Positions 8,336-55,719 of a stretch of 64,000 nt of DNA are shown here, in pieces. The stretch is from Hypomesus transpacificus (Eukaryota > Chordata > Actinopteri > Osmeriformes > Osmeridae): contig NW_025813837.1 of the NCBI RefSeq assembly GCF_021917145.1, positions 2,509,591-2,573,590 of the forward strand, written 5' to 3'. Each line of letters opens with the position of its first letter. Within the stretch, counting starts at the first letter, position 1. The notes under the pieces were generated by a model that was not told where the DNA came from, ran no database searches, and saw nothing but the letters and a program-made list of their open reading frames with translations. The position numbers and the translations under genes were made by a program.

Positions 8336-11215
<2,880 letters not shown>

Positions 11216-26145: not shown

Positions 26146-28402
26146 AAAGCTCAGTCTGGTCAGATGAGGCCTCCACATTCCAAACGAGGCGTAGTACCCT
26201 TACAGATACCCAGCTCCAAATGGTCTTAACTCGTCTGCCTTCTACAGTTTTTAACATGGCTCCCCCACTGTGTTGTTCACTGGAAGCAGTAGAACATGCA
26301 AATGGATCTGCCTGTGGTCGTCATCACACGTCGGATGATAGTGGTATCTTGTGTTTGGAAACGTTTAAAGGAGGGCTTTTTCCCCCTCATTTGAATGGGG
26401 GAGAGGGAGAGGGAGGGAGGGGGGGAGAAATGGAGAGGGAGGCCTGGAGACAAACAAGGCCCAGGGCTCAGAGCTGAGCTGTCTCTGGGGTGCTCTGGGG
26501 TCTACAGGAAGTAGCACAGGAAGTGAAATGGCAATTTTCAAAACAAAACCTCCATGTTAGTTGAAGAGTGTTCTCGTCCCGCTTCGCTCTGTAACGGATC
26601 AGTAGAGTCAGACTGACGTTCGCTCTGAGATGACTCACGGAGGTGACCCCTCTAACGATTGATTTTATTAATGCTCAGTCATTGTTGTGGCGGCGGCCAT
26701 TGTCAGACACACGGTGCCTAGAGGCCGTCCCTGCTGTTGTGATGAGACGACTTGACTACTGTTTGAGCCAAGTCTCTCCCTGCCAGCATCACGAGTCAAA
26801 CCACAGATGCTTGTTGCAAAACAGGAAATTCTGCGACAGAGAGATTTTGAGAAGTTGTCCGAACAGACGCCTACATTAAATAGTTGGGGCGACTCCGGCA
26901 AGCAATTGACGGGTGACTTCCCAGGAATGTGGCAGTTAAAGTTTGTGTCCCATCTTGCACTTCTCTCATTAGCCCTGTCTACAGTTCAGGACATGCAACA
27001 CCAGACCAAAGGCCTGTTGTGACACATGCTCTGCTCTGGGAGGGCCTAAAAATACACAGTCACAGAGGGGTTCTCCAGGGTTGTAATAGGACCTGAAACA
27101 TGCTCCCAGATCAGCCCGACTCCAGGCCTTCAGCCTCGACCTTTGAACTCTACCACACTTTCTCTTCCCTTTCCTTTTTTTTTGTAGTTTTTGTTGGTTA
27201 CAGTGAGGGGAAAGAGCGGAACTACCACGTGCTAGGTATGACCTCAGGCTGAACATTTTTTCATTTCCTGCCGCCCACTTCCTCCTTCCAAGTCAGAACC
27301 CGTCGACAAGGTTGTGTTTGATTAAGTTCGATGACAAATCCTGTTCTTTCCCAACCTCTACCCCCCCACCCTCTTTGTCCCTCTCCCTTCTCTCTCTCTC
27401 TGCTTCTCTCTCTGCCCTTCTCTCTCTCCCTCTCTCCCTCCCCTGTCTCTCTCTGTCTCCCCAGTGAGAACAAGCCCAAGAATGGAGGGATCTGTGTGGC
27501 CAACCACACCTCCCCCATCGATGTCATCATCCTGGCCAGTGATGGCTGCTATGCAATGGTAACTTTATGCCGTCTCACCAGGCACAAGACTACAATCACA
27601 CGGCCAGCTGCCAGCGATGTAGACATGCCGTCTCGCAGTTTAACATTTAATAAACAATAACCGCCCTTAAACCGCCAAGAGCAAATTAAGCGACACTTTA
27701 TTTTAGTTATGACAGGTTCGTCAGGTTTATTATTTATCCCTGTGTGTTTGCATGAGCTTTGTTTTATTTACAACTTGACTGTGTCGCAGGTTGGTCAAAT
27801 ACATGGCGGTTTGATGGGAGTTATTCAGAAGTCCATGGTGAAGGCCTGCCCTCACATCTGGTTTGAACGCTCTGAAGTAAAAGACCGACACCTGGTGGCT
27901 AAAAGGTGGAGTTGCACATTGAAGTGCTTCTGTTTACAGTGGCTCTGTGAATCCCCCCCCCCACACACACACACACACCTACCCGGTGGAATGAGAAATC
28001 AGATTTAGCGTTTCTAATAAACTGTATCTTGTTTGGTGCAGATTGAGCGATCACGTCGAAGACAAGACCAAGCTTCCTATTTTAATATTCCCCGAGGGTA
28101 AGTTGTTTCTGGGTATCTGCTCTGCCACACATGAAGCGACGTGACTGGTCTTAGACTGGTGCTGTGTTTGGAACACGTGTCGTGTCTAATCGTCCTGTCC
28201 TCCCTGGCTGTTGCATCCCCAAGGTACCTGCATCAACAACACGTCAGTCATGATGTTTAAAAAAGGCAGCTTTGAAATTGGATCCACAGTCTACCCTGTC
28301 GCAATCAAGGTGAGGTGTGTGTGTGTAAAAGACATACAGTGTGTGTGTGTGTGTGTGTGTGTAAAAGACATACCGTGTGGGTGTGTGTAAAAGACATACA
28401 TA

Positions 28403-28458
<56 letters not shown>

Positions 28459-29150
28459 GACATACAGTGTGTGTGTGTGTCATTGAGAGACAGTACTCCT
28501 AACCCTTCTGCATCATGTCCCCGGTCTCTCAGTACGATCCCCGCTTTGGAGACGCCTTCTGGAACAGCAGCAAGTTCGGGATGGTCAGCTACCTGCTGAG
28601 GATGATGAGCAGCTGGGCCATTGTGTGCAGCGTGTGGTACCTGCCCCCCATGAGCAAGGAGGTCAGCCCTGCCCCCTACCTGCCCCCCTCCCCTACCCCC
28701 TCACCTGCCCCCCATGAGCAAGGAGGTCAGCCCTGCCCCCTACCTGCCCCCCTCCCCTGCCCCCTCACCTGCCCCCATGAGCAAGGAGGTCAGCCCTGCC
28801 CCCTACCTGCCCCCCTGCCCCCTACCTGCCCCCCCCCCTCCCCTGCCCCCTACCTGCCCCCCGCCCACGAGCGTGCTTGTTTACCTGGGTCCACCAGGGA
28901 TTGCATTTGGGAAATGCAAATGACACTTGGAGAGGGATTTCAAATCCGAAGCCACTCAGCCAGCGTTGAGGCTGTGGCGGCGGCCATCTTTTGATTTTAA
29001 AGAAATGTTATTCAAAGTGGCTTTCGCTGATTTCCCTAATGTGTCTGGGCCTCATGGGCAAGTCATTCCAGGGTTGGGGGAGAAAAAGCGATCATGAATA
29101 AGCTTTTGCTAGGCACATAGACCTCGATGTTAGCCAGTGGAGTTCAGGTT

Positions 29151-29189
<39 letters not shown>

Positions 29190-30022
29190 ATTACAATTCC
29201 ACTGCGCTCCATGCCAGCCAGGCACAGCTCCTGAACAACAGGAAAGAGAGGGGAACCACCCACCCCTTTCCAGAACAGAGAGCGTGTGAGGCAGGGCCCA
29301 AACGGGCCCCAGTGCCCTGACCGTACATAGACCCCCATGCTGATGTGGAAAGCAGAGAGGAAGGCAAGTCACTCTCTCTATTTCTCTCACTCTCTGAATG
29401 TCAGTCGGATGAGCGCAGTGGGCCGCGAATCAGGTCTCTGGCCTGCCCTTTGATCAGTTTTTCCACTGCACTGAGCCCCCTCCTCCCCCTCCTCCTCCCT
29501 GGTCATGAGGGATCTCACTGCCGAATCATTAGCCTCCATATTTAGTCTCCTTCGGGGAGACCTTCCTGATGCAATTCAAAAGGGAGGGAATCTATTCTGA
29601 TCAACGGTTTTACGTAACGTAAAACCTAGCTACGTGCTAACTCCCAGGTACTCCCCCAGGATGTGTGATGTGTGGTTAATAAAGCTGAGCGTCCGGGCCT
29701 GACTCGTGTCTCCTCTGTTCCGAGCAGGAGGGAGAGGACGCGGTGCAGTTCGCCAACCGCGTGAAGTCGGCTATCGCCAGGCAGGGAGGTCTGGTCGACC
29801 TGCTATGGTGAGCAAGGCGGTCGCACGCCCCGGCAAACTCTACGATTACAACTCTCACAACGGTGGGAGATGAGTCGTGACCTTTGCTTGATCTCTTTGT
29901 TTTGTTTTTTTAGGGATGGAGGTTTGAAACGAGGAAAGGTAAAAGATACCTTTAAAGAGGAGCAGCAGAAGCTATACAGCAAAATGCTCGTAGGAACACA
30001 AGAGGACCGTAGTCGTTCTTGA
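20599..30022 (+). CDS. gpat4: Glycerol-3-phosphate acyltransferase 4 (AGPAT6)
   Basis: GPAT4 is an ER and lipid-droplet membrane enzyme that acylates glycerol-3-phosphate, the first step of triglyceride and phospholipid synthesis. Twelve coding exons read 20599-20760, 23531-23600, 23691-23991, 25531-25605, 25733-25822, 27465-27558, 27790-27905, 28042-28097, 28224-28309, 28533-28661, 29728-29807 and 29914-30022. They close to 455 residues (human 456). An N-terminal membrane segment (about 8-40) is followed by [19 protein letters not shown]. Two hydrophobic stretches (about 150-200) come before the catalytic motif NHTSPID (His247, Asp252) and FPEGTC (319-324). The end [17 protein letters not shown] is as in human. 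Intron 4 holds a 21-copy minisatellite starting 10 bases after the donor. The 3' end of exon 11 is triplicated in the genome. It neighbours GINS4 and NKX6-3 in human as well. Confidence 0.97.
24001..24357 (+). repeat. 17-nt minisatellite, 21 copies, in gpat4 intron 4
   Basis: Exactly 21 head-to-tail units of ctagcctctctccccag, most identical, with diverged units at the ends and a few inside. The array starts nine bases after the exon 4 boundary (23991). The leftmost units (ctagcctcacgcaccag) resemble the donor flank gtacgccag, suggesting growth from the donor side. Each unit is a pyrimidine run ending in CAG, like a 3' splice site. There are no spacers, so it is not a CRISPR array. Confidence 0.95.
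24681..24785 (-). repeat. SINE-like repeat with LINE-type tail, in gpat4 intron 4
   Basis: Reverse-strand relative of the element at 3052-3151, sharing the body (tgcataggtcac, aagagagagctttacaaaag on plus) and the tail (catttagcagacgctttta). The body is unlike the tRNA-derived SINE heads of the window, but the tail is shared. Confidence 0.75.
28310..28484 (+). repeat. Compound GT repeat in gpat4 intron 10
   Basis: GT runs of differing length are separated by four copies of a short unit taaaagacata. This is a microsatellite inside a minisatellite, directly after the exon 10 donor and about 50 bases before exon 11. Confidence 0.92.
28641..28870 (+). repeat. Tandem triplication covering the end of gpat4 exon 11 and its donor
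   Basis: A unit of 63-64 bases is repeated three times with decay at the right. It contains the last 21 coding bases of exon 11 (encoding LPPMSKE), the donor gag|gtcagc and a C-rich intron flank. Donor copies fall after 28661, 28725 and 28788. The first gives the conserved protein. Use of the second or third would add 64 or 127 bases and shift the frame. Confidence 0.88.
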
Positions 30023-33283: not shown

Positions 33284-36200
33284 ATGGAAACGTACACTGA
33301 CGTCTTACTGGTCACCGCAAATGTTGGATCCTTATTTGACAATGTAAGTGATACATTCTGCTCCTGTATTCCGTTTCGCATTTCCCCTATAGCCATCCTG
33401 CGAGTTAGGCTACATATAACGTTCAGACGCATCCAAAATCACATGGTTGCCTAATTCATGCAATTTAGAAACGGCTTGCATTATCGCTGCATTTTTCATT
33501 CCCACAAGACCAAGGCCGGAGACCTTCACAAATATATAGTTTTTTACTTTGCAATAACAAAAGTTGGGAAGATAAAGGCCTGGGTGTAAAAAGCGAGTTT
33601 ATTTCAACAGTCTGCATGAGACCCTGTAACTTTGTTGTTGCTTCATTCTCAGAGCTGCGCTGAAATGCGCGCGTGATACGTTTTTGATTTAATCAATAAA
33701 TACAAATCGTTATGTGAGCTTACACAGTGCGTGCCCGTGTCTACACTTGTACTACCACGCTTTCTTCAGGAAAGTTAGTTTTTGTACGTCATTCTCACAT
33801 CAGTTCCGTCAAAGAAGAACCTACCTATGCGCCACGGCTGGTAGTAAGATACAGGAAATTGACAGACAGCGCATTGTTTAAATCTATTCCCGCGAAAGAG
33901 CTGTGTGCAAGTTGGCCTTTGCCAAGTTGGTTGGTGTACTACAGCAGAAATACCTACAACCCGATTATTATTCATTCGACTTTTTATCATGACAGTTAAT
34001 TTTCCAGATACAAACTGTTTAAACAATGGAGAGTGAAAGCATAGGGTAATAATCTTGTAAAACGTTTCCAGTAGGCTGTTTTGCTTCAGAATCAAAACCC
34101 AATGCCTGACAGGCCTCTAACACGACCAAGCTTCTTCTCGTATAGTGACGGGGACGGAGCTAGACTCATGGAAATTTGGCTCAGGACCACGTTTCCGTTT
34201 GCCATATCTGGCACCGATGAAAACATGTCAGATCCCATTGTGGGAGACAATGTAAACAGATGAATATCGTCCCCAGGCGGTTTGATACTCATGGCCCCCC
34301 AGACGTAGCCTAGATAAACAAATGTTTGCAAATGTTTTTCCAGGCACCATTTTCTTCTAAGTTAAAAAACATCTTTTAAGCCTTTGAAATTATGTAAGAA
34401 TTCTAATTCGTATCGTAAATTACCATTATTAATCATTGTCAGGCTACAACTCAAGTCAACCCTTTCCCCATCACAAAAAGGTATTGCTAAAAAACTTTAA
34501 TATCGAACCAGAGGCGTAGACACATTTTACTGGGGAGGGGTAGGGGGGGCAGTGTTTAATCAGAGGGGCACATTAAAAAACGGAAACAAATGATATTTAA
34601 ACATTAAATACTTTAATTTAGCTTTACATTAAAAACATACAAACGGCTCTGGCTCTACATCTTCCAGCTCCGCCTTGGGTTCAGAACACTTGTTTTATTT
34701 ATGTCTTTACTTAGCACCCCCATCCCAGAACCATCCTAGTCATAGTTTTTGCCTCTGCTTTTTAGAGTAGGTTATTTTATGGTCCTATTTTATTACCTTA
34801 TGGTCCTTTTCCGTTCATTTTCCCTCCTGTAACATTATAAAAACTGTTGAAACTGTTGGACAATTCTGTCGACAGATACCACACCCATATGATAAAGTAG
34901 CTAATGTGTTAGCTTTTCATTTAGGCAACTTTGATACAGGCTATTAGCCGTGTGTCACGTTTGGGCCTGACACGTGGATTGTGCGTGAGGTAGTCAGGTG
35001 GCTGAGCGGTTAGGGAATCGGGCTAGTAATCAGAAGGTTGCTGGTTCGATTCCCAGCCGTGCCAAATGACATTGGGTCCTTGGGCAAGGCACTTCACCCT
35101 ACTTGCCTCGGGGGAATGTCCCTGTACTTACTGTAAGTCGCACTGGATAAGAGCGTCTGCTAAATGACTAAATGTATATGTGCGTGAGATACCCTCCCTT
35201 AAGGTCAGTGGGCGAGAGACTTGCTGTCACTTGGCCATGCAAATACACTATGCAAAGGTACGCCAGTCACACTGCTGTCTGTAGGCCCGGCAGAAGCCTG
35301 CACACTGTTCTAGGTCGTTGGCCGTTTCCCAGGAAATCCCAGGAGACCAGAAATTCAACTTTTCCACTTGCTGTCTGATTATAATCAGTTGGGTGTGCTG
35401 CCAACATGGACCATTTACCATTTGTAAATACTTGGACGACCTTACTTTGTGTAGCTCATGGCTGTAAACCATGGTTGATCAGCTGCATGATTGACAACTG
35501 TGACACAAATCAAGCAGATCTTCAAAAATGTTCAAATACTTTATTTTCTTCGACTTCTGTTAGTGACCCAACTTAGCTGTATGCATTTTGTTTTCCATAA
35601 ACATATGAAAAACTTCTGAAGTATACACACATTTGTACTGAATTCCATAGTCTTGTTTATAGAGCACTTGTAAAGTTAATGTTTAACATAAATCTTCCTT
35701 TTATAACCAATCTGGGTAGGATTGGCCAGAATGGTTTACCAGACAGGGGTGTTTTGTTTATTTGCTTGCTTAGCTCATACAAGTTTGATGGCCTTCACTA
35801 TCGGGTCATCATCTATTATGAAACATGTCCAGCGATCTGTAGAGAATGATGTCTGGAACATTAGCATGAGGACTCTTAAAATATTTATATTAAGTTAATT
35901 AATATTTATATTGAGTCCTGCAACGTCAGTTTACAGTTGTCTGTATTTATTTGTTTAAACTGTTGGGTTTGTGGCACATTGTTTAATGACGAGTTGATGT
36001 GTTTAAGACAGGGCTTTTCAATGTTTTGGGGCCAGGGACCCTTTACCAAGGACCCCCCAGCATCTTTGCTCTTAAATGGACACAATATGCTTGTTTTATT
36101 GGTGCAAATGTTCCCCATCTGTGGATTATTTTTATATTTTTCCCTTTTAAATGATACAGCACAATTTTACAATGTTATAATTTATGGTCGTTTCTGATCT

Positions 36201-39200
36201 TCAGATATTCTCTCCTTCTATCCACAGGTCGGCGAGATCCAGAGTGAGTGGTTACGAGAGTTCTTCACGGTGAGTTTGGGACCTTTCGTCTTCACGCTAA
36301 TAGAACAGACAGGTCCTCCGAAATGTCTCTGTAACTGTGCAGTCGGCATCATTCCTCACGAGTTAAGTATGACATGATTTTTTTTTTTTTACTTCTTCAC
36401 CCTGTCTCCATGGGAACAGACTGTTCACAACCTCAAGCCGCGGTTTGTGGCGTTGCACTTCCAGGAAGTGGGGGGAAAGGACTACATGGTCAACATGGGC
36501 CACGCTGAACACTTCTTCTGGTACGGAGACCAAACCAAAATATGACCAAACTTCCCTCCAAAAATACAGCTTGACGTCAATGACGAGATTTTGTAATTCT
36601 GTACAGTTTGGTGTTCTCTATTCTTACTATGATTATTTTACTTACTGTCGATAAACAATTTGAAAATCTTTTCCTCATTTCATTTTCTGGCTTTAGGACC
36701 ATTGAGACCAGTGAGGAGATGAGGGATTTTGACCGAGTTTGCATCTATGTTGACAACCACTTCAAGGCAGTGGACAGTTTCACTGTGAGTATTGTAGTGA
36801 GATTAACAAGGTCTAGATTGACTTCATATGGTCGCTGGTGTATGTTAAGATAAGATAATATATACCTTTATGTTACAGCATTGCATGTAACACATGGGGT
36901 TAACATTACTGCTGTGATCCTTAACTAGTCTGTGTCAGAGTGTACCCAAATTAGTTTCTTGAAAACGTCTCACGTGACTTGTGTTGTTGAGTGTAGTTTG
37001 TCTGTATAGCCACAAGATGGAGCTGTGCCCCTAATAAGCATGCTTGGGGTTCCTAATAGATCCATGCTACCTAATATATTTTTAGACAGAGAAACAGAGG
37101 GATTTGTTGGCAAATATTGTATAATAGAGCACACATGTCCAGTTACAGCCAACACATCTTAAATATTGATTTTGGGTCATCTCTGCTGCATGGACAAATA
37201 AAGAGAGTTCATTTCCTGTTACTAGCTTGTTCAAACTGAAATATGAATTGCGAAGCCTAGAATCATTGCAATGCTCTCCTTAAGTATGTTGTAAAACGGT
37301 TGGATCATTCAAACCCAATTTTAAACATGAATGATCAGGGGTTTCAAAGTTTGACGTGATAGTCGTTGTACTCATACAGTGGTACTGTTTACAGTTTAGA
37401 AACATTTAGAAGTCAAGGAAGGGGACGTAGAGCTTCCTTTCTCAATGGAGTAACAGCTCCTTTTGTCTGTCACGAACAAGTCCATCATAGACACATAGCT
37501 TGTCGACTGTTGATGTAGTGTAATGTAAGTTTAACCTTACTCTGTGGTAAGAGACTGTGGTCATCTCAGTTAAAACCTTTGGAAAGCACCTTTGGCTAGT
37601 GACAGCCTTCATATAACTGACATCTATCCCAAAGATGTAGTATGAGCCTTGTTCTTGGAGAGCAACCCAGCGAGAGCCCAGTCAGAGGCGAGGTGTTTAA
37701 AGGCAGGTTTATACACTGCCTGTGAGCTGGGCCCAGGTTTCACATCCTCATCCATCCTCTGGGCTCGCTCCTCTCCTTCTGAGCAGCGCTCCAGTGCACT
37801 GGAGAATTAGAAAGCAGTGAGGAGACCGTCGGGCCTCATGGACACTGTCTCAATCTCCAGCCCTGTCAACCCACCTCCCACCAGACCTCACGTCCTCTCG
37901 TGGTTTATGTTTTGCTCCCCCCCCCCCCCCTCTCTCTTTCTGTCTCCAGTTATCCCACAAGGCAAGGGCAAGGCTCGTTTGTGTACGAAACATTCTGACT
38001 TGGAAAGATGCTGTGTTCGAAAAAAGTCACCCCCCCCACTCACAACACGGTTGTGCGGCACAGTGTTACTGGTGTTATTAACCCCTACCCCACCCAGGTG
38101 AGACCCTGCCCAGGAGCCCTGACTGTGGGGGGTCAGTGGGTCGGCCCAGTCTGAGGTGTGTGAGATGGTTGGAGGAAAGTCAATGGCCAGGTGTTGGGGG
38201 AAGACAGGCCAAAGTCAATCAATTTAACTCTAGATTAAAACTATTGATCCCGCCCCCATTTGTAAACAATAAATAAAGGGGGGAGAGGAGGAGCCGACAG
38301 CTGGGGCTATGTTTCTCCTGAGCTGGGGGTGTCTGATCCCCCCCCCCCCCTTCCGTGGACTGTAGCCCCCCCCCCCCCCCCCCTCCTCCCTTTCATGCCT
38401 TATTCTCATTTCGCCCGTGCCACCTGGATTGATTTTCCATTTGTTTCCTCTTGGCTGTGGATCATCATCTCTCTGGCCAGGAGTGGGTGTGAAGGTGGGG
38501 GTGGGTTCTGGGAGGCAGGGGGGCTCAGTGTGTGGAGAAGTGCTGTGAGAAAAGGGGAGTTGGGGAGGGCTGGTGGTGGGCAAGCTCGCATGCATTCCCC
38601 AGTACAAATGGTTTTTTGATAAAAAAAATCACTTGTAAGTCAATATTTTTTTATTAAACACTGCACAAACGTGATTGATGAAGATAGGTGCTTGGCAGAG
38701 TATGCCGAGGAGAACGTTTCTCTGTCTGTGTGTGTGCACGCGTGTAGGTGTGTTTGTGTGTGTGTGTATCACAAAACAACTTTAGGTTACACCCCCCTGG
38801 AAGTGCCTGGCTTGCCCACCCTCTTTTTAACATAAACTTTGTCCAGATCACCTATTCCAGTTACAGCAGTATAACTCCATTACCTCAATAACAGGTCCCA
38901 GATAACCTTTCCGTATGAATCTGCCATAACAACCCCCACCCTAACCCCTCCACAGTTTAGACAAGTTGGTCCCTAATCGCTGGCCACTGGGGCTGGTCAC
39001 AAGGACAGCTCGGGCCTATTAAAGAACGGTGGCGCTTGGCGGGTGAGACGAATGTTCTCTTCAGGGAGAGATCTCTCATGCCGGGGTCTGAGGGGGGGGG
39101 GGGGGGGGGGGGGGGGCACTGGCCGTCACGCCCCGGGGCCCCCGGGGGGGCGCGTTGATCCGTCTTCGTCCTGGAGTCACAGGCAGGGTGGGAGCAGACA

Positions 39201-41320
39201 GCGCCCCCCCCCCCCTGCCTAATACCTTTTAAATTGTTTTAATTTTCTGTCTTTATTGATCTCAGGGGGGCATGATTAATCAGATCACTGGAGCAGGCAG
39301 TTAGTACATTAAAAATTGTCAGCGCTACGTCAGGCTTGATTGGGTGCTGATGTGTGTGTGTGTGTGCCTCTGTTAGTTTTTTTTACATCACACGAGCGTG
39401 TGTGAACTGCGAATATGCCTGGCATTGCATTCACAGGTACTTATTGAACTCACTCAATGAACAACTAAATCTAAGTTTAGTCTCATGTAAAAATAAGTCT
39501 TTATTTGTAAAAAAAATTCTCTCTCTCTGCCCAGGCCCTGGGAAGCATGTACTTTATCCATAAGTCGTTGAAAAACATCTACCAGTATGATTTTAACGGT
39601 AAGAGAGAGCATGACATCCCATATTTCTATGACATCACTGTTGACCATGAATGACAAAAGATTTGATGTCACTATGTTATCGGCTAGTGACAAATTATGC
39701 CCATTTATGCCCTGCACATGGTCGTTTGTACATCGTATCCAAACATGACCAAACTCTAGCTACGATAATGCTCCTTTATGTTTATTCTATTGGGTCGTTA
39801 TTATCTTGCTTGTATGATTGGAAGGGAAGTTAAAGTCAAGATTACAATCAAACAATGTTTCATATCTTGGCAAGACTTGTCAAATATTCTCCCGAACGCT
39901 GTTGAATGATGGCCACCTCTTTTGGTACAGGCATTTGCAAAGAATCTGAATGTAAAGCAAATGTGTGATTTTTCCCCCTGTTGCATAGTCCAGTCACGTT
40001 AGGCGTGACAAAGCTCTTCAGAAAGAGCTTATGGAAGAACTATAAACATTCCTTCCTGCCACGTTCTGTGTCAGCCCATCTGATTGGTCCACGCCAAACA
40101 GGGCCTAATGGCCAGATTATGGATCCTCTGATCACGTATGCTACCCTGATGAGGTTTACACAACTTTATTGATTGTTGTTTGCATGTTTTGTCACTCTGT
40201 TACCCTACAACTCCCCCCCTCCCCCCCTTTTCACCCCCCCCCCCCCCCCTCATCTCTAGCTAAGGACTTTAAAGCAGTGTCGGGACAGAACAAGTATGTT
40301 GGTTCCCTGGACGGAGTAACCACGGTGGAGAAAGAAAAATTTCCAAAGAATTTCTGGCCGGATGTGAGTATTTCTGTGACTGTGTGTGTAGGAGGGAGAG
40401 GGAGGGGGAGGGGGAGAGAGAGAGAGGGGGAGGGAGGGAGGGAAAGAGGGAGGGAGGGAGGGAGAGAGGGGGAAGGAAGGAGAGAGGGAAGGAGAGAGGG
40501 AAGGAGAGAGGGAGGGAGGGGGTTGGCACAGATGAGTCTACTGGGACTGAGTTGGGCAGGGGGGGGGAGAGGAGTCAGTCCCCCTGTTGGGCAGGAGGGG
40601 GGGGGGGGGGGGGGGCGGTCAGACCCCCTGTCTGACCAGGAGACGAGATCAATCACACTGAGGACAAGAGATGAATCAATGAGCATTGAGCGCCCACACT
40701 GTGCCATAGCCACACTGCTGTGTTGTCTAAGGCGGACATGCTCCGCTCGTAACCACGGTGACCCTGGTGTCGTGTGTTGTTTAAGGTGGACATGCTCCGC
40801 TCGTAACCTGGTGTCGTGTGTTGTCTCTTGCAGTTCAAGTGGTCCAGGAAGGGCTACCTGAGGACTCGTTGGATCATACACAACCAGTAGGTTAACGGTC
40901 ACACTCAGCCAGCAGCTACTCAGTAGATAGGAAGATTGGTTGCTCAAGTCTGCAATCAGCAAACACACTCAGTTTTTTGGGCGCACAATGGTAACTGTTT
41001 GCTTTCCTGTGTCACTACCACTGTGTGTGAGACAAAAGGAGGGAGTTCGCGGGTGAGTGTGTCAACACTGCTCGTCAGTTGCATGCACATTAATTGTTCT
41101 CCAGTGGCAGGTTGAGAAAGCGGTGAATGGAGGGAGAGCAGGAGACAAATGTGTTTGTTTGTGGATTAGCGTTACCACAAGTCGCTGATAAGGCTTTCTG
41201 GTAGACAGACACACACTTACTTTACACGGTCACGGACAAAAGGGGTTAGTGTCACTTCAGGGTCTCATGTTTTCCTCCACCTGTATGTATTCATTAAATA
41301 ATTCTGTGTATGTGTGCATG

Positions 41321-41384
<64 letters not shown>

Positions 41385-41859
41385 CCTATGGTCTGCAGAG
41401 GTCTGGACCTTGTCAACGTCCATTTATTCCATGACGCCTCCAACCTCATTGCCTGCAACTCCAGCCCCTCTATCTACTCGGCCAACCGCAAGAAGGCCCT
41501 CAGATATGTCATCAACAGGTGACATGTCCACCCTCTCCCCCTTCACTCGAGCTCGAGCTCTGTGAATAAACGATGCGAAATACTATTGTTGATTTTTTTT
41601 TTTTACCAAGGAACAGATGTTCCAGCCTCGTGACTCTCTTGAGTCACCTCTCTGTCATTTCCTCCCAGGATATCAGACAGCAGCTACACCCCCCTTCCCT
41701 TCTTCCTGTTTGGAGACTTCAACTTCCGTCTGGACACGCTCAGTCTGGTCCAAGTATGGTCAAGTGTTGACAGTGCGGTCACATGATCAGGAAGTCTATT
41801 ACCAATGGTCAGCTGACAGTTCCTTCTTTGTTGACCTGTGTGTGCGTGTGCGTGTGCGT

Positions 41860-41903
<44 letters not shown>

Positions 41904-43439
41904 GTGTGTGTGTGAACAGAACCTGTCCACCTCAGCAGATGTCCAGACAGTGAAGGACGGCAGTGATGAGGTGGAGAAGATCATCTTTGAGGAGAAGGAC
42001 AATGACCACCAGGTGATTCCTGTCCTCTCCTGTCCTCCAGTCTGTCCTCTCCTGTTCTCCAGTCTGTCCTCTCCTGTTCTCCAGTCTGTCCTCTCCTGTC
42101 CTCCAGTCTGTCCTCTCCTGTCCTCCAGTCTGTCTTCTCCTGTCCTCCAGTCTGTCCTCTCCTGTCCTCCAGTCTGTCCTCTCCTGTCCTCCGGTCTGTC
42201 CTCTCCTGTCCTCCAGTCTGTCCTCTCCTGTCCTCCGGTCTGTCCTCTCCTGTCCTCCAGTCTGTCCTCTCCTGTCCTCCAGTCTGTCCCAGACCCCCGT
42301 CCCTCAGACTGACTGATGCCCGCTGTCCTCTCTCCTCCAGGTCCTGCTGCACATCGAGACCAAGCTGTTTGCCTACCTGCACCAGGCTGTCTTCAGAGAG
42401 GACAATGGCAAAGCAGTGAGACTTTCTTCCACCAGTCACTGTCTTATCCCCATGCTTCTAATGATGGCCTGCTTCTGCCTGATGAAAATGAACTCTAATA
42501 ATTGTTAACAGCTAATACATTTCTGTTTGTATAAAAACTCTGTGGGGAATATTCGCTTGTGGGTGGTAGCGCTAGCTGCAGTGTCGTGTGATCGGTAACT
42601 CATTTCTTTCTACTAACTCAGCTTTTGGAATATGACAAAGAAGTGTCCGCCTTCCATGATGTCATCACAGAGGAGGAGATCCTTTTCCCGCCCAGGTGAG
42701 CATCCCAGGGGCGGTCGCCTAGTAACAGGCCCTCCTCAGAATCTCATCGTATCTCGTACCAAAAAATAGCAACGTGAAAATTAACTCATGGTGCTGTACT
42801 AGCTGCGTGTTGCAGCTACCAATATACCTGCCTCCCTGAATATCTAACTACGATGCCACATCTCTCTCCCAGCTACCCTTACAGCGAGGACTACGCTAAA
42901 CCCACGCAGTATATGAACACTCGTTGTCCTTCCTGGTGTGACCGCATCCTCATGTCCCACACGGCTGAGGATGTCATCCACAGGGTCAGTCCAGCACCAT
43001 CACCACCACACCAGGGCCTTGGAAGTAGAACATGGATTTAGAACAGACAATCCTCTAGATTTGGAACATAGAATTCTGAAAGAGTAGACCATGGATTTAG
43101 AACATACAATCCTTTAAATTTGGAACATTCTGAAAGAGCAGAGCATTGATTTATAACGTAGAATCCTGAACAGCACAACAGATTTGAAAGCATAGGATTT
43201 CCGATCTCGTATGTCTGGTGCGTTTTCTTCCAGAGAGATGATAGAGAGAGGAGCGTGGTTTACAACACACTGGGACCCAACGTCTGCATGGGAGACCACA
43301 AGGTAACAGCTTCATGGAGCCCTCAGTTTGTCTTCAGCGCTACCCAGGGTGCACCTCTGCTCTAACAGTTGCTGTTTTCCTCTGTCTCTCTCCAAAGCCT
43401 GTGTTCCTGTTCTTCACACTGAAGACAAATTACCATTGA
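33284..43439 (+). CDS. inpp5a-like: INPP5A-like inositol polyphosphate 5-phosphatase
   Basis: The INPP5A family removes the 5-phosphate of Ins(1,4,5)P3 and Ins(1,3,4,5)P4, ending calcium signalling. Fifteen coding exons (33284-33343, 36228-36269, 36420-36520, 36697-36784, 39535-39598, 40260-40363, 40834-40886, 41399-41518, 41669-41753, 41920-42012, 42341-42415, 42622-42695, 42873-42984, 43234-43302, 43398-43439) give 393 residues (human INPP5A 412). The start METYTDVLLVTANVGSLFDN aligns with the family N-terminus. Catalytic motifs are intact: FLFGDFNFRLD (223-233), CPSWCDRILMS (338-348) and GDHKPVF (377-383). Many positions differ from INPP5A, so this looks like a separate paralogue rather than the orthologue. 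It ends LKTNYH and lacks the C-terminal Cys-rich prenylation box (CCVVQ) that anchors INPP5A to membranes, so it may be soluble. It converges on nkx6.3. Confidence 0.93.
34993..35178 (+). mobile_element. tRNA-derived SINE (copy C), near full length
   Basis: The tRNA-like head (gtcaggtggctgagcggtta, B box ggttcgattcc), body and LINE-type tail (gtaagtcgcactggataaga, ctgctaaatgactaaatgta) are all present. It lies in intron 1 of the INPP5A-like gene. Confidence 0.94.
41325..41385 (+). repeat. GT repeat at the exon 8 acceptor of the INPP5A-like gene
   Basis: About 30 GT dinucleotides with one interruption end 13 bases before the acceptor cctatggtctgcag (exon from 41399). Little polypyrimidine tract is left between the repeat and the AG. 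Confidence 0.93.
41837..41914 (+). repeat. GT/GCGT repeat at the exon 10 acceptor of the INPP5A-like gene
   Basis: A TG run with several GC interruptions reaches to within five bases of exon 10 (acceptor gtgtgaacag, exon from 41920). There is no normal pyrimidine tract. Exon 10 is 93 bases, so skipping would keep the frame. Confidence 0.93.
42019..42282 (+). repeat. 22-nt minisatellite, 12 copies, in INPP5A-like intron 10
   Basis: Exactly 12 units of tctgtcctctcctgtcctcc plus ag (or gg), starting six bases after the exon 10 boundary (42012) and filling 264 of the 328 intron bases. Each unit is a pyrimidine run ending in AG and strongly resembles the true acceptor of exon 11 (ctgtcctctctcctccag, ending 42340). 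Only single-base differences separate most copies, so the array is recent. Confidence 0.95.
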
Positions 43440-46400
43440 CCAGGACCATCCTCCACGCACTGTGAGAGTCCCTGTGTGTGTTTTACTGGTGTGTGCTGGT
43501 CCCCAGACGCTGAGGGGGGGGGGCGTCACGGTGACAGAGCGACCCCTGTAATCTTGCTCAGCTCACGGCTGTATTCCCCAGAGGGCTGTAGTGCGGCCTG
43601 GTCCTGGAGGAGAGGGGATATGAACTAAGATGAAGTGTTGGCGGGACAAACTGGCTCCTTTGTGCATAATGCAGCTGAACCAACCGCACTGCTCCTGATG
43701 TATGCGTATCGGATCCTCTCCACTGTCGCCACGGCTACACCCGTGTTAACAGCCGTGTTCATTCGATACCAGACAGACGGTCGACCGGAGAGACATCCAT
43801 TGCCAGCCAGACGGGTCTATTGGCATTTTTACGGCCTCTGGTTTTGTTTCGCTGCCATTGCTATGGCTGTTTCATAGGATGTGCCACTGGTTGATATGCA
43901 TGGAGCTAGAATGATGAAAGCCATGCTTTGGAAGTCATGTCAAAGAGACAGACAGCTGAACAAGGCCGAACACCATAGAAGAACCTTGTTCTTTGCTAAT
44001 GTTTTCATGTATTACCCTTCTGATCAAGCTCCGCATCGGCATAATAACTTGAGGGCCAGCCTTACTGTCCTCACTAACAACCCATGTTCCATTTTTTTTT
44101 TTTTTTTACCATTTATAACTTATTGTATTGTTACTTATCATGGGAAGGTTGGGATATGGTCTTAGTGGTGCCATCACATGACTGACCGTTCTCTCCCATC
44201 CTCCAGATGTAATCCAGTCTGCTCCAGTTGGCCCTGAACCCATTCCAGCACTACTCTCAAAACCAGAACCAGGACCAGGGGAAGCCCAGCCACCCCACAC
44301 CCACCTGAGAGCAGCCGCTCACGGGACACATCCTCTCCCTGACCCGCACGCATTGTGTGTCCAGGACCCCGTCCCCCCCCACCCTCCACCCCTCTATCAT
44401 ATCCCAGTACCCCCTTCCCCATCCACTCCTCTGTCACTCCACATTATTGATTCCCAAGACTCGGGTGACATCACACAGATTTGATCATCAGCATTATGGA
44501 TTTTTTTTTGATGGACAATCTCGCACGGCCCTCTCCCTCCTACTCCTCCACGTGTCTCCAGAACTCTGAGCCCAGGGTCTCTGAGGACGCTCCTGCGAGT
44601 GGAGGCGTCCACTCCGGGCCGGTTTGAATCAGAGGGAAGTAGGACAGGTTGTCTTGTGAGACAGGCCCGATAAGTCCTTCTGAAGGTTGAGGCCCCTCGG
44701 CTGTTTCTGGAAACATGATACAGTGGCACCTCTGTCTCCTGTGGATTCATGGATATGTGAAGACATGCGTGGGCTTACACACACACACACACACACACAC
44801 GTGTACACACACACGTACACACACACACACACAGTTAACTGTAGAGACACGAGGCAAGGTAAACCCCATAACTTCAGATGGATAAATGGTTCTCAAGCAT
44901 CGAGGGGTTTGTTCCACCAAGTATTGATTGTGCTCTGCTGACATTCAAGCAGCTTTCACCCCCATTTTCGGAAACATTTATTTCTTCTATTTATTTTTCT
45001 TTAATGGCTTACTATCAGAATATCCATGCTAATAAAGCAATTTTGAAAAACAGTCAACTAATCCTGCTGTTTCAGTGCACTGCTGGCGAACCTTGTCCAG
45101 AGAATACAAAGGTCATACGAGGGTATGAACACGTTATCTTAGATAGTTATCCGTTTGCCTCACAATCACCGTTTATGACATTGTATGGCTTGCATTGACT
45201 GTTGTTACAGTGATTAACTTTATTTCCACAAAAGATTGGCCGAGCAGCTCCATGCGGCTTCCGTTCTGTTTTAGTGGTCTACAGATTTCCTTGCTTACAG
45301 AAAACAGTTGGGAAGTTAAAAACTTAGCCGCTGTTTGCAGACACATCCCCTGTGCTTTGTCCTCACAGCAGCGTCCGCTAGTTTGTTCCACAGCTTGAGA
45401 TCGCCCCGCTTTATTTCATTGCCAAATCACTGATGACGTTGACCCTATCACTCTCTATTAAAGCTAGCTACAGTGCCAGCATCTGGCTGAAAGGAACCAC
45501 TTACACTACACTCACGAACACACACACACACTGTACCCAACCCTGCATGCAAATACACACACCTGACACGATATAACAAGATATAAATCTTGAAGCACTG
45601 AGTTATTTCTGTTTTAATTATGTTTTATTGATTATATCTTTTATATGTTTTGTAGTCATATGGTCTCGTAGCAACCACTGTGTTTTGTATGGATTGTCTG
45701 TTTTTGCAAATATATTCTCATAATATGAACTAATTTGAAGTCTCAAAATACGTATGGTGTTCTAAATATTCAATGGTCGTCTTTATAACTAAATTAATTA
45801 ATTAGTGTTAATGTTTTTTTTATTTTATTATTTCATTGTACACAATCCCCATACCAACTGAAATACATTTGAAAAAAAGAACATACATAAACATAAATCT
45901 GATTTGCACGCAGTTCGTGAAGTAATTGTTGCCGGAAATAGGACTCACTGTGAGTGTTATTGACGATATCAGAGCCCACTCAAATGTCCTTACATTTGTT
46001 TACAGTCGATTTGTACGTGTCATGGGTACACTTGTCAATAATAGACTTGTGGTAGTTGATTCATGGTGTGGTCAAGCACCTCTAATGGCCTCCAAGGAGT
46101 CCTCTGGCAGTGGGGGGTTCAGCATAGGGCCAGGGGCATCATTAGATGGAGTGGACTAACCTCATTTTTCATTTCAGATCAAACACAAACACTACATTCT
46201 TGTAATCCTTCCAGTTTGGTTAATAAATGCTGGTCACTGCGCTAATAGTAGTGATGTGTGTCTCAGTTATTCTACCAGATTCCTTAGAATCCTTGCCTGT
46301 GCATGAAAGTAAAAACAATTTCCTGTTGATTTTGATGTATTGACATTTTTTAGGTGACTGGAAGTGCAAGACGGGTTTAAACTCGCTTTCCTGCTTTGGC

Positions 46401-48328
46401 ATAATTCCGTGATTACTGGACAATACTTATTCTGCACAGTGACATTCCAAACCATAGACGTGTCTATTTTCCGAACATCATAACTAGTTTTTTTTAAGAA
46501 TCTGAACTAACTCGCTGCTGCACGCGCCCCTGTCTGTTCTTGTCCCTGAGACTCAGGGCCCTTACAGCTCCTGAGACGCTTTGTTGAAACGAGATGACGC
46601 TGGGTTTCTTTTTTGAACCATGCAAAATTGCCATTTAGCCTATAAGCAGTAGGTGTCGAAAAGCACTTTCTTCTTGTTATATATTTCGGTTCTATAGTTC
46701 TGAGATTCAACCTGTGGGTCTGAGCCATGGCTCCTTGGTTGCCGCGTGAGAATGTAAAACTACCTATTAATGGGACTTTGGCATAAATGGATGCGATATT
46801 AAGCCTGCTCTCTCAAGGTGGAATAGGCTGGCTGTTTAGAACGGTGAGAACTGGGCATGTTGTACCGATCAATTTACAGGTCGAGAGAGAAAAAGCCGAC
46901 TGGAATGGTGAGTTGTTCTACATCAGATGCTCAACATCACTGCGTTTTCCACGACAGATGTGGCTTCAATAAGATCGACTCAGATCTGTCTTCAGTGAAA
47001 GGTCTACTGAACAGCGCCAGCAGAATACAGTTCACAGCAGCCTAATGAGAAGTGTAGGCTAGGGTATGTTTTATGAAAACGAAAGGCCTACGGCATCAAG
47101 GCTAATCGTCCTCTTTCGTTTTTAAGAACTTTCCGAAGTTGCAGGCCCACGCCGAAACATCTCGAGCTACTAATGTTTGCACAACCCGCAACTTTTTACA
47201 CTCTTGGCTGCATATTTAATAGTGATTTCAAATATAAACAGTCACTGTGTAAAACTCCCCCCTCAATTAGCCATCTGTCCTACAGTCACAGCTCATTAGG
47301 CTGTTGTATGTGACACGTCTAATGTCTGAATACCACTCAGACCGCCATTGATTTAATGTTGGAGTCGAAGCCACTGAAATCCTCTCTCTTCCAATCAGAA
47401 ACAGCTCACCGGTAACGGACCTAAATCACTACGGATCTAACCTTTGACCTTCTCACATCTCAATAAGTGTGTAAGCCCTATCTCCTAATTCAGATGTGTG
47501 TGGGTTGTCATCTCCCCACCACATTCATAACTAAAAACAAGTAATGACACCATCACACATGTATTCAATAAATAATCCACAATTTATTGTACAATATCAA
47601 CATCATAACTCATTTACAATGTCTGTAGATTCCTTGAATTATTAGCTCTGAGGTTTATACAGAATGCTGAAAGCTTGCTGACCTGTGGTCTAGTCTGCAT
47701 GAAGGCCAAAACGAAATCTCAGTTTGAAATGCACATGCTCATAAACCATAAAACCATAAAAATGAATTAACAGCGCAGCATAACATCAAATACTGTAGCG
47801 AAATGCAAGTAAAACAAAAAACAAAACAAAAAAATGTTTACTGTAACCTTAAGCCACTAAATTAATTCAAATCTGAGTGTTTTGAAAGATTAGCAAGAGT
47901 TGGATGATAGGAAACAGTTGAGGAGCAGGATTAAGTATTTAAATGCAGCTATACTTGTACTTACATATGGCAAATGAAATTGAAACTAACGTCTGTTGTT
48001 GAGAAACAAACCAATAAAATTGCTATACGATTCAACACTTTACCTGGTTAATTTACTACGGCGCCCAGATATTAAATTGAGTACAAAAAGTAAACATCGG
48101 TTTTATCAATGACCGTAGATTACATTTGTTTATTATTAGTAACGCACATCAAAGGGTTGTTCTTGGCAACATGCTCAAATGTGTCTGTATTGCAATTAAT
48201 TCTTCATCCTAATTAAATTGTTGCAACTGCATGCATATCTGCTTTACAATTGTACGCGTGTGTGACAGAGAGAGATATCTGCATGTGTGTGGGTGTGTGT
48301 GTGAAAATTGAGCGAGTGTGTGAGTGTG
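43440..48328. other. Region between the convergent INPP5A-like and nkx6.3 genes
   Basis: It holds the 3' UTR and flank of the INPP5A-like gene and, on the other strand, of nkx6.3. Contents seen are a T-run near 44090-44107, a C/CA-rich stretch at 44190-44420, and a CA repeat at 44776-44832 interrupted by gtgtac. From 45590 the sequence is AT-rich. On the minus strand an AATAAA at 48134-48129, about 195 bases after the nkx6.3 stop, is a candidate poly(A) signal. I see no other gene. Confidence 0.5.
45031..45036 (+). terminator. Candidate poly(A) signal of the INPP5A-like gene
   Basis: AATAAA lies about 1.6 kb after the stop codon. A nearer canonical signal was not found, but variant signals are possible. 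Confidence 0.3.
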
Positions 48329-50391
48329 TCAGACGTGCGGTCCGAGGCGTAGGACTGAGAACGCCCGGCGGTGCTTTCTTAGCAGCAGTCGGATCTTCTC
48401 GTCGTCAGAGTCGGGGTCCAGAGGCTTGTTATACTCCTCGTCCTCCACCTCGTTCTCCGACTCCTCTCCGCCCTGCTCGCCGTGGGTCACCTGGGTGGAG
48501 CTGGGCTCCAAAGCACTCTTCTTCCTCCACTTGGTGCGGCGGTTCTGGAACCACACCTGAAGGAAGGATTCCTTTCGTTAGTAGGTTGTACGTTTTGCAA
48601 CATCAAACTATTTCATGGGTGCAGTCCCTTCCTCGTGGAACAACAAACAGGAAGGGAGATGAGGGAAATGAGCAGGCACCACAAGCAGAATTGTGCTGCT
48701 AAATGCTGTTTTCGGTGCCCTTAGGCCAAGCAAAAAAGTAGTCTAGGTGAAGAGCTAAATACTTCGGTATTTGTTTGTGTGAACGTGCAGGTCAGCTGGC
48801 GTCAGGTGGCTGAGCGGTTAGGGAATCGGGCTAGTTATCAGAAGGTTGTTGGTTCGATTCCCGGCCTTGCAAAATGATGTTGTGTCCTTTGGCAAGGCAC
48901 TTCACCCTACTTGCATCGGGGGGAAATGTCCCTGTACTTACTGTAAGTCGCTCTGGATAAGAGCGTCTGCTAAATGACTAAATGTTAATGTAATGTATTA
49001 AATGAAGATGTTAGATGCGTGAGATGGTGTTGTACCTTCACCTGGGACTCCGTCATGCCCAGGGAGTAAGCTAGCCTGGCACGCTCCGGGCCTGCCAGGT
49101 ACTTGGTCTGCTCAAAGGTTTTCTCCAGAGCAAAGATCTGGTGTCCGCTGAACGTCGGCCGTGTGTGTTTCTTTCTGCCCGACATGTCGCCAAGGTGACC
49201 GCTGTCTGCAAATATAAGACATCACGCTAAATGTTCCTTTCAAATGATAGCCTACATGAATGTGTTTTGTCTCAGAGCTCATGCTATTTATGTTTAGAAG
49301 GAGTTCTGTATAATCTGTTTTTGGAACTGTATGACAAACTGGAACACAGTAATAGGTGAGGCTAAATGTTATGACAAACCTTTTCAAAAGCTCCACAAAG
49401 TTTTAGCTTTAATATGTGTTTCTCTGTAAAAATGTATATTATTCCTAAATTCAGAGCTATTTTTAGGTATTGACAAATCAGAATATAAGTAATTATTACT
49501 GACTTTCACCTTTCAATAAACATTTCCTCAATTGTTTAGTTGCTGTAGATTTATAAATGCTGTTCCTATAACACAAATGATCTCTCTTATTAACCAAATG
49601 TATACAACTTTCATTTCATAAAACTTTATTTCTATGTGTTGTGAAATAAGTTCAGGTTGTTTACTAAAATGTTTATTTACAAAATGTACAGGTGTGAGAT
49701 ATTCCATTTCTTCTCAAAGGACTGGCTGAATGAATCAGCAAAATATTTCCTGAATGCAATTAGTGTACTCCACTGAAACAAATCGCTGTTAAATTCGAAG
49801 ATTTACATTGTGTCATTTTAGTCAAGATAAGTTACATTCAAGAAAAATTAAATGCCGAATGAAACATGCGACAAATGAACTTGAAAATCCAGAGAGTGAG
49901 TGAAGTGAAACTTCACATAGACGCAGCAGCCCTGCCCTCAGTCAGCAGCCCTGACTGTGCAGAGTGATAGACTCACTGTTAGCGCAGTGCTGCCTCCCTG
50001 CTCTCCACTCGTAGGCACCCTCCCCCCAGCAGCTGCCCGGCCGCCCCTTCATGGGGCACTCGGCCCCAGGCTTGGAGAACCCCCCCGCGGCAGGGTTGCA
50101 GTCCCGGTTGTAGTAGACTCCCGGGGTGGCGGCGACCGGATGGCTGAAGCCCCCCATGGCGGAGTACCCGGACAGCAGGGAGGTGCCCGACGCCCCCATG
50201 CCAACCATGGAGCGGCTGAGGATATCGCTGATGCCGTGAGGCGTGCCCGCCGCATACTGGCTGTTCAGACCCTGGTTGAGCTTGTAGAAGGAGTTGGGCA
50301 CGGAGTACTGGCACATGGGCGCCTTTAAGTCCGAGGGGAACTGGTTCAGGCTGTTGTTGAACAAGAAGGAGCCCTGGATGTTGGGATCCAT
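48329..50391 (-). CDS. nkx6.3: Homeobox protein Nkx-6.3
   Basis: Nkx6 proteins are homeodomain repressors that pattern neural tube, pancreas and gut; NKX6-3 acts mainly in stomach and duodenum epithelium. Three exons on the minus strand (50391-49977, 49205-49036, 48556-48329) give 270 residues (human 265). The start [20 protein letters not shown] matches the human start; an in-frame ATG upstream (50445) would add 18 residues but lacks family support. An eh1-like repressor motif GISDIL lies at 53-58. The homeodomain is residues 150-209, with [20 protein letters not shown] and [12 protein letters not shown]; the intron between exons 2 and 3 falls after QVK. The acidic tail [19 protein letters not shown] is diagnostic of NKX6-3. 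A SINE sits in intron 2. The gene is divergent from neurl3 and close to gpat4, as in human. Confidence 0.97.
48801..48995 (+). mobile_element. tRNA-derived SINE (copy D) in nkx6.3 intron 2
   Basis: Complete head, body and tail, in antisense orientation to nkx6.3. It ends 40 bases from the exon 2 donor. The tail reads gtaagtcgctctggataaga then aatgactaaatgttaatg. Confidence 0.94.
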
Positions 50392-52514: not shown

Positions 52515-55500
52515 ATGTACAGCTGTTCAGACCGAACGATGAGCCACAGTAATGATCCTGGTAAGAAGCTTACAATTCATCTCAAGTCTTTGGAGAGAAG
52601 AACTGCATTTGTCAATTTAGGTTGATATAGAATTTTCTACAACTGTTGATCTTCCTAGAACATTTTGATATAAGGATGTTGTAAGAGTGTTTTTTCAGAT
52701 ATTGTGACAACTTTTGTATTGACTCATATGATAAGCTTGTCATTTTACAAGCTGTCGACTGTCATTTATTTATGTAACTGACAACCTGATTCACATGCAT
52801 TACATTGCCGGGCAGTGAAATAGGATATTAAACAGGACATAACTTGTAAAGTGATGCAACATCCTCTTTTGGAGATAAACCAATCATGTGTGTTCATCAT
52901 TGTGAAGTTCCCTTGAGTGTGAGATGAATTAGCTGTTGGAGACTCACCAGGCTTTGTTTACTTAGAGCAGCCTTTGAGCTCAGAACTGACAAGAGACTGA
53001 TAGATCTGAAAGGTTGTATTGGTCAGGGATGGGAATGATCTGAGAAGACCGAAACAAGAAGTGTGTCATGTCAAAAAAAGAAAAACAAAACTAAAATCCC
53101 AGTACTGGCTGATATAACCAGACTTTCTGCAGTTCTAAACAAGATACACGTGACCCAACGGGTTTCTTGATGTTTCTGTCATCAGAGCCATGGCTGTACG
53201 GTCTTAAAGATTAAGAGCTCCTGACAAATATTTAGTTGTTGTTGAAAATAATAGATTATGGATGGTTTTGCCCACAAATGCAATGCAAAACGTGATAGGC
53301 TTTTCATTGCTCAGGTAATCTACAATCAGAATGAGTTTTTATTGCCATGTAAATTCACACTAACACAGAAATTACTGTGGCAGGAAGGTGCATAAAATAA
53401 AAATGTACAGATCTTTAAAAAAAAGTGTAATACTAAAGAACTAAACTAAATATCTAAGATATAAAATCAATATAAATATAAAATGTTACAAAAAATATAT
53501 AAAATAGGGCAGCATAGTGCAATATGACATGTGCAAATAGGGTGGTGGATGGACTTAAAATAAATAATAATAAATAGATAAAAGTGTTATAAGTTATATG
53601 TCAGTGTGAGTCCTTGGCCTTGTTGAAAAGGCCAGCGGCGGATGAAAAGAAAGGTACACAAAGAAAGGTAGATTAATCTGTGCAGACATTCCAGTCCTGA
53701 CACAAGATTTCTCAGAACTGATGATTGAGATTGAAACTGAAATCTGCCTCTGTTTTCATGAGCGTAATCAAGTCAACATCAACTGGTCTTCATGAGTTTC
53801 TTTATTCATTCGTGATGGGTACACTTGAACAATTAAACCATAAACCAATGATATCTTTATGCTCTTATTGCAGAGTCGCTACACACCTGCGACCTGCGCT
53901 GCCTGGGCCCTCTGACCTTCCACACGACTGCGGTGGGGAACCAGGTGAGTCTGAGCCAGGGGGCCAGACTCGCCGAGAGGAAAAGGAGCTCCTTCCACCA
54001 CGGCCTGGTGTTCAGCAACCGACCGGTGAGGGTGAGGGAGACTGTGTGTTTGCGGGTGACGGGCTGTGCGCCCAACTGGCACGGAGGCCTCCGCGTGGGC
54101 TTCACCACGGTGCCCCCCGCCGGGAGGATCCTGCCCCCCCTGGCCATCCCTGACCTGACAGTCAAGCCCGGGCACTGGGCTGCCGTCGTCCCCGAGGCCT
54201 GCTGCCGGGAGGGCGCCCAGCTGGAGGTCTGGGTGACCCACGGGGGGAATGTTTACATCCAGAACAAAAATGGCCGAGCGATAAAGCTGCTGGAGGGGCT
54301 GGACCTTAGCAGGCGTCTCTGGGCCATGATCGATATCTACGGGCAGACCTGCTCTGTGCTGCTGCAGGGTATGTTCACATTGCCAACCCGTCTGTCAAGT
54401 TGAACATTTAGTCATTTAGCAGGCACTCTTATCCAGAGCGACTTACAGTAAATACAGGGACATTCCCCCGAGGCAAGTAGGGCGTAGTGCCTTGCCCAAG
54501 GACACAATGTCATTTCTCACAGCCAGGAATTGAACCGGCAACCTTCGGATTAAGGTTCTACCCTTCTGATTAAGGTTCTAACCTCCTGCCCGATTCCCTA
54601 ACCGCTCAGCCATCTGACCAGACTAGACCAGACCATCTTAACAGACTAGAGGGTGCTCAACTGTCACCGGCTAACCATCCGTCTGATTCTCACTTGCAGG
54701 GTCAAAGAAGAAAGACATTTTTGGGACACGGAGGTCCTGCTCTCCTCCCCAAGGATGGACTCAGAGGGCCCCCTCGCTCTGCTTTGACTACAACCAGGTT
54801 TCCAGTCCCATCTCTGTCAGTCGCAGTGACAAACACGGATGCAGCTGCAAGAACCACCACATGTCCCGCCCAGACCACAGGCAGACACTAGGTAACCCAT
54901 CATCACGGTCTTTTAAGTCAGATGGCTGAGCGGTTAGGAAATCGGGCTAGTAATCTGAAGGTCGCCAGTTCGATTCCCGGCCGTGTCAAATGACGTTGTG
55001 TCCTTGGGCAAGGCACTTCACCCTACTTGCCTCGGGGGAATGTCTCTGTACTTACTGTAAGTCGCTCTGGATAAGAGCGTCTGCCAAATGACTAAATGTA
55101 AATGTTGAATCATTTTTTACAATCATGTATTACACCATATCAATGAGTAAAAAAAAAACTGTATTAGGAGTAATGCTCATGTTCTACTTAATCCTTGGAG
55201 CTTTCTAAGAACTTTGCCATAGCATCTTGACCCAGCAAATTAGTTTCAAGCTAGTGCTCCGGGTTTAGTTAGTTAAACATTGACAGAAAACTTCTAAGCT
55301 GTTTGCTCAAGGTCATGTGCCAACGGTGGCAGTTGCATTTTTATGTTATGTACTGTATGCTAACCTCACAGACTCCACCCTTCGCTAGCACCCCCCCCCC
55401 CCCTCTCTCTCACTCCCTCAGTCTCTCTCTCTCACCCTCCCTCCATCTCTCTCCTTCCCCCTCTCTCTTTCTCTCTCACCCTCCCTCTCTCTCTCCCCAC

Positions 55501-55719
55501 CTCTCTCCCTCCCCCTCTCCACATCTTTTTTATCTCTCCCGTCATGTCATGTTCTGTGTTCTGGTTTCAGACTTGAACAGTGTGGAGAACTGTGCGGTGT
55601 GTTTGAGTAAGGAGCCAGAAGTCACTCTTCTGTGTGGTCACCGGTGCCTGTGCTTCCAATGTGCAGCGAGGGTCATCCAGGAGTTTGGCACCTGTCCTTT
55701 GTGCCGGCAGAAGCTCTAG
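52515..55719 (+). CDS. neurl3: Neuralized-type E3 ubiquitin ligase 3 (NEURL3/LINCR)
   Basis: NEURL3 is a small RING E3 ubiquitin ligase induced by inflammation in mammals (first named LINCR). Four coding exons (52515-52560, 53874-54368, 54700-54891, 55571-55719) give 293 residues. Exon 2 encodes the neuralized homology repeat: LTFHTTAVGNQVSLSQGARL, FHHGLVFSNRPVRVRE, VTGCAPNWHGGLRVGFT and VYIQNKNGRAIKLLEGLDL. A Ser/Cys-rich linker in exon 3 leads to a C3HC4 RING with C252, C255, C266, H268, C272, C275, C286 and C289 (ending CPLCRQKL). All ligands are intact. Exon 3 (192 bases, phase 1 at both ends) is flanked by two SINEs in opposite orientation. A TATA-like box lies upstream. NEURL1 is the alternative, but the single NHR and short length fit NEURL3. 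Confidence 0.95.
54404..54618 (-). mobile_element. tRNA-derived SINE (copy F) in neurl3 intron 2
   Basis: Reverse copy with tail at the left and head (ccgctcagccatctgac) at the right. It has an extra internal duplication near the B box, where gattaaggttcta appears twice in tandem (about 54549-54580). It ends 82 bases before exon 3. Confidence 0.93.
54917..55104 (+). mobile_element. tRNA-derived SINE (copy G) in neurl3 intron 3
   Basis: Forward, near-complete copy starting 26 bases after exon 3. It is inverted with respect to copy F, so the two could pair over about 180 bases around exon 3. Confidence 0.94.

Follow-up and report, generated by a model that had tools for sequence, protein, structure and literature searches.

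An intact 15-exon gene encoding a 5-phosphatase related to INPP5A lies exactly between gpat4 and nkx6.3 in Hypomesus transpacificus and, with a probability of about 0.8, we regard it as a 2R ohnologue of INPP5A that belongs to the NKX6-3 (8p) side of the duplicated block and is absent from human, a reading that draws on gene order in one species. The gene model retains the catalytic residues of INPP5A and ends without the C-terminal lipid anchor, a new point that was absent from the first-pass annotation of this DNA. All positions given below refer to the window, by which we mean the whole stretch of 64,000 nucleotides that was analysed.

Structure of the INPP5A-like gene

Splicing of the predicted coding segments exon by exon yielded a single open frame of 1182 nt, which begins with the ATG at 33284, ends with the TGA at 43439 and specifies 393 aa (Table 1). 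GT-AG borders were found in 14/14 introns, and the two remaining frames of the spliced sequence contain 7 and 25 stops, respectively. GC content at codon positions 1, 2 and 3 is 0.49, 0.32 and 0.69, compared with 0.46 in intron sequence (8974 nt), and this pattern, together with the open frame, led us to reject the idea that the gene is a pseudogene. A retrocopy was ruled out because the gene contains 14 introns. These data bear out the 15-exon 5-phosphatase postulated in the first-pass annotation: both peptides quoted there were recovered, from exons 7 and 8, and the span that it had singled out (33284-50391) extends from the ATG of the phosphatase gene to the ATG of nkx6.3 on the opposite strand, with both genes being intact. 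When the window was searched by tblastn for a second INPP5A-like copy, only the gene's own exons were returned and the next matches had E values of 1.5 or worse.

Two of the introns have a composition of their own. Most of intron 10 is occupied by a minisatellite (42020-42289) with a period of 22, 12.3 copies and 96% matches, and intron 4 includes a complex, non-repetitive AT-rich stretch (39225-39350) that is flanked by simple repeats and might be a candidate conserved non-coding element.

Table 1. Positions of genes and exons in the window.
Feature	Position	Strand	Remarks
PPP1R3 gene	6799-7566		CBM21 (Pfam)
PHYHIP-type gene	8336..8956	-	Pfam PHYHIP_C 9.8e-86; phyhip or phyhipl
polr3d (RPC4), two stretches	16779..18470	+	PDB RPC4 chain 3.4e-68
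gpat4, C-terminal exons	27481..30019	+	gene begins further upstream
INPP5A-like 5-phosphatase gene	33284..43439	+	15 coding exons, open frame 393 aa, Pfam Exo_endo_phos2
INPP5A-like exons 1-5	33284-33343, 36228-36269, 36420-36520, 36697-36784, 39535-39598	+	
INPP5A-like exons 6-10	40260-40363, 40834-40886, 41399-41518, 41669-41753, 41920-42012	+	
INPP5A-like exons 11-15	42341-42415, 42622-42695, 42873-42984, 43234-43302, 43398-43439	+	
INPP5A-like terminal exon 15	43398..43439	+	ends FTLKTNYH-stop, without CaaX
nkx6.3	50391-49977, 49205-49036, 48556-48329	-	3 exons, 270 aa, intact
Neuralized and RING finger gene, NEURL3-like by layout	53852..55719	+	one Neuralized domain; adjoins nkx6.3

Family assignment, catalytic residues and the C-terminus

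The predicted protein matches the Pfam family Exo_endo_phos2 with an E value of 5.7e-16. The two motifs reported for the 5-phosphatase family, WXGDXN(Y/F)R and P(A/S)W(C/T)DR(I/V)L (PMC7781601), are both present, as FGDFNFR in exon 9 and PSWCDRIL in exon 13; the former starts with F and not with W, and F is also found at this position in the human INPP5A sequence that we used for comparison. That sequence is a working copy and not a database record, but we trust its register because its length (412), the residues D384, C408, C409 and Q412 and the CVVQ tail fit the numbering given in papers on the protein. The INPP5A-like protein is shorter by 5 residues at the N-terminus and is identical to the working copy of human INPP5A at 214 of its 393 residues, compared over its entire length (54%), a value that by itself fits a 2R twin and a fast orthologue alike. 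With both motifs found and an identity of this order, the earlier description of a protein that shares INPP5A family motifs and yet diverges throughout was accurate. In contrast to INPP5A, the solved type II/III enzymes SHIP2, OCRL, INPP5B and INPP5E, which belong to the same catalytic family and carry the signature motifs, match only weakly: the best E value was 4.9e-4 (SHIP2) among the 5 sequences listed when the INPP5A-like protein was used alone, and 1.1e-5 among the 8 sequences listed when a two-sequence profile was used. Consequently, a type II/III identity was rejected, and the protein is closest to the type I enzyme INPP5A.

For a closer look at the active site we selected 14 positions from the family motifs, the description of the synaptojanin 1 active site (PMC7781601) and general background on the enzymes. 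All 14 (N13, E50, N177, H179, D227, N229, R231, Y323, N335, R337, D343, D378, H379 and K380) are identical to the working copy of human INPP5A, a comparison that serves as a check and not as a blind test because the alignment was already in view when the positions were chosen. D378 aligns with D384 of human INPP5A, and an INPP5A D384G mutant was reported not to rescue (PMC10965444). Because the 14 positions are kept, the natural inference is that the protein would be an active enzyme; INPP5A itself is described as acting on soluble IP3 and IP4 only (PMC7947285). Searches of non-vertebrate collections, which are uninformative on fish, gave no match to the protein among plasmid sequences, and none of the stretches that fitted a search pattern was confirmed, either in viral contigs (20 and 326 stretches) or in genome contigs (92 stretches).

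The C-terminus sets the two proteins apart. INPP5A is a known type I inositol 1,4,5-trisphosphate 5-phosphatase, which breaks down IP3, the messenger that triggers Ca2+ release, and it has a described palmitoyl/farnesyl anchor, in which C408 of the human protein is palmitoylated and C409 farnesylated (PMC12450637). Whereas INPP5A ends in CCVVQ, the INPP5A-like model ends in FTLKTNYH and has neither a CaaX box nor the preceding palmitoylated cysteine that mark the INPP5A subfamily, and we use the name INPP5A-like rather than INPP5A for this reason. As predicted from the DNA, the protein appears to be without a membrane anchor and, because the palmitoyl/farnesyl anchor is missing from the gene model while the catalytic positions are kept, we predict an active, soluble IP3 5-phosphatase. 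In human INPP5A, the C409S substitution is reported to take the enzyme off membranes and to cause its accumulation in the nucleoplasm, and the mutant strongly inhibits Ca2+ oscillations at the lowest agonist dose only (PMC12450637).

It is unlikely that the INPP5A-like enzyme is nonetheless membrane-bound, be it via an unrecognised 3' exon, another lipid or a partner. Exon 15 is a prediction from DNA, which leaves some room for this reading, but the sole exon with the PVFL codons runs to its stop with no GT donor 3' of these codons, the last GT overlapping the L codon. Moreover, inspection by eye of the next 5 kb (43303-48300, + strand, three frames) revealed 10 C-x-x-x-stop strings, none of which resembles the INPP5A tail, and we rejected a hidden CaaX exon on these grounds. 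The two sequences are compatible both with a loss of the anchor in the INPP5A-like protein and with its gain in INPP5A.

Gene neighbourhood and evolutionary origin

The human genes NKX6-1, NKX6-2 and NKX6-3 have been placed at 4q21.23, 10q26.3 and 8p11.21, respectively (PMC2211742), and the NKL paralogon comprises 2p/8p, 4p, 5q and 10q (PMC2211742; also PMC3112091). GPAT4/AGPAT6 and NKX6-3 share one common locus at human 8p11 (PMC6358625), INPP5A and NKX6-2 together flank CFAP46 in birds (PMC10445033), and in dog both are located inside one 201-kb CNV region (PMC7774950). In the window, the phosphatase gene (+) and nkx6.3 (-) face each other tail to tail, with gpat4 on the other side of the phosphatase and polr3d beyond. 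Thus, both phosphatases have an NKX6 gene as a neighbour, but the INPP5A-like gene adjoins nkx6.3 whereas INPP5A adjoins NKX6-2. We take human INPP5A and NKX6-2 at 10q26 to be likewise arranged tail to tail. The identities of the flanking genes agree with this picture: the nkx6.3 product, which contains a homeodomain (match of 1.1e-21), is 64.1% identical to a working copy of human NKX6-3 versus 49.1% to one of NKX6-2, and a working copy of GPAT4 exceeded one of GPAT3 in both score and identity for 6/6 pieces of gpat4, one of which also gave a weak match to Pfam Acyltransferase, below the cut-off.

Since gpat4, the phosphatase gene and nkx6.3 follow each other in this order within the NK paralogon, we infer that the INPP5A-like gene arose in 2R. 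An ancestral INPP5A-NKX6 block would have been duplicated, and the 8p-side phosphatase would have been kept here and lost from human. The most economical explanation is that the block was duplicated in 2R, because NKX6-2 and NKX6-3 belong to one paralogon, INPP5A lies near NKX6-2 and the tail-to-tail order is the same on both sides. The INPP5A-like copy appears to be missing from human, because INPP5A is the sole type I enzyme in the published lists of ten human or mammalian 5-phosphatases (PMC7947285, PMC7781601), with which the single human INPP5A assumed in the first-pass annotation agrees. The 2R ohnologue proposed there gains from the positions of gpat4, nkx6.3 and polr3d and from the INPP5A-NKX6-2 pairing in birds and dog, although the PPP1R3 neighbour is of no help to it, and the accompanying claim that fish kept the gene holds for H. 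transpacificus, the single genome covered. Among the literature matches listed, taken by their titles and the beginnings of their abstracts, none described an INPP5A ohnologue of this kind; gene databases may well already list the gene as INPP5A-like, and ohnologue tables may include it.

The remaining genes of the window were compared with their presumed human locations. We take human PHYHIP and POLR3D to lie at 8p21, PPP1R3B on 8p and PPP1R3C on 10q. The best PDB match of the PPP1R3 gene was PPP1R3C (1e-40), and chains consisting of the CBM alone matched at 1.5e-31 (PPP1R3C) and 3.2e-29 (PPP1R3B). The gene thus matches PPP1R3C over PPP1R3B, though the remaining block resembles human 8p. Because its best match is PPP1R3C, a 10q gene, this neighbour lends no support to an 8p identity of the block and may speak against it. 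On the far side of nkx6.3, the NEURL3-like gene matches Pfam Neuralized (4.5e-40) and RING (1.3e-9) as well as a neuralized chain in the PDB (9.1e-28); human NEURL3 is presumably located at 2q11. Placental mammals carry PROM2-KCNIP3 on another chromosome as the result of a move, whereas other tetrapods have it linked to this cluster (PMC2446394), and the NEURL3-like gene may be a further member of the block that was relocated in mammals, for which the PROM2-KCNIP3 move could account. Repeats are also found in the window: a minisatellite with a period of 18 and 18.3 copies, in which several frames are open, lies upstream of nkx6.3 (51021-51350), and five copies of a tRNA-like, SINE-type repeat were recognised by eye in both orientations (34990-35190, 48800-48990, 51730-51930, 54410-54620 and 54920-55110). 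A tRNA scan of the window found 0 tRNAs.

Other histories of the gene have to be set against a 2R origin. According to one of them, 2R gave two copies and this fish kept the 8p-side copy alone, which now does the work of INPP5A here. The origin would then be identical to the one that we favour and only the role would differ; we consider this improbable, as the enzyme is without the anchor that INPP5A requires for full effect and teleosts presumably possess an inpp5a gene. It is very unlikely that the gene is instead a later teleost duplicate of inpp5a, produced in 3R or on a small scale, that evolved fast and came to lie beside nkx6.3 by chance. Its divergence (54%) and the fact that 2R is supported by gene order alone would suit such a duplicate, but the 14 introns exclude a retrocopy and a chance landing beside an NKX6 gene, tail to tail with it and exactly between gpat4 and nkx6.3, is itself hard to credit; this position is why we rank a recent or 3R duplicate low. 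The least probable history in our view places the split before 2R, with two INPP5A-type genes adjacent to each other, of which one type survived next to nkx6.2 and the second next to nkx6.3. INPP5A is a slowly evolving enzyme, for which the identity observed is low, as an older split would predict, but this history calls for one additional duplication and for further losses, and the same order is explained by plain block duplication.

Possible role and wider meaning

If the gene is a 2R twin of INPP5A, as we favour, its product would be a type I 5-phosphatase that depends on Mg and cleaves the 5-phosphate from Ins(1,4,5)P3 and Ins(1,3,4,5)P4 in solution, whereby Ca2+ release would end. Without an anchor, the enzyme would be expected to act in the cytosol and the nucleoplasm and not at membranes near IP3 receptors, and such a soluble enzyme would trim global rather than local IP3. 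We tentatively suggest, at somewhat less than even odds, that early vertebrates possessed a lipid-anchored INPP5A near IP3 receptors together with a soluble, partly nuclear twin on the nkx6.3 side, which was kept in fish and lost towards human.

If this division into an anchored and a soluble enzyme is true, the disposal of IP3 in vertebrates was once divided by location between 2R twins. With a true 2R origin, the 2R NK paralogon would gain one further gene family. If many fish keep the second copy, they would have two type I enzymes, compared with the one described in human; the INPP5A-like enzyme may then mask the effects of fish inpp5a knockouts used as models of ataxia and Ca2+ signalling, and the INPP5A/INPP5A-like pair offers a natural test of lipid-anchor function.
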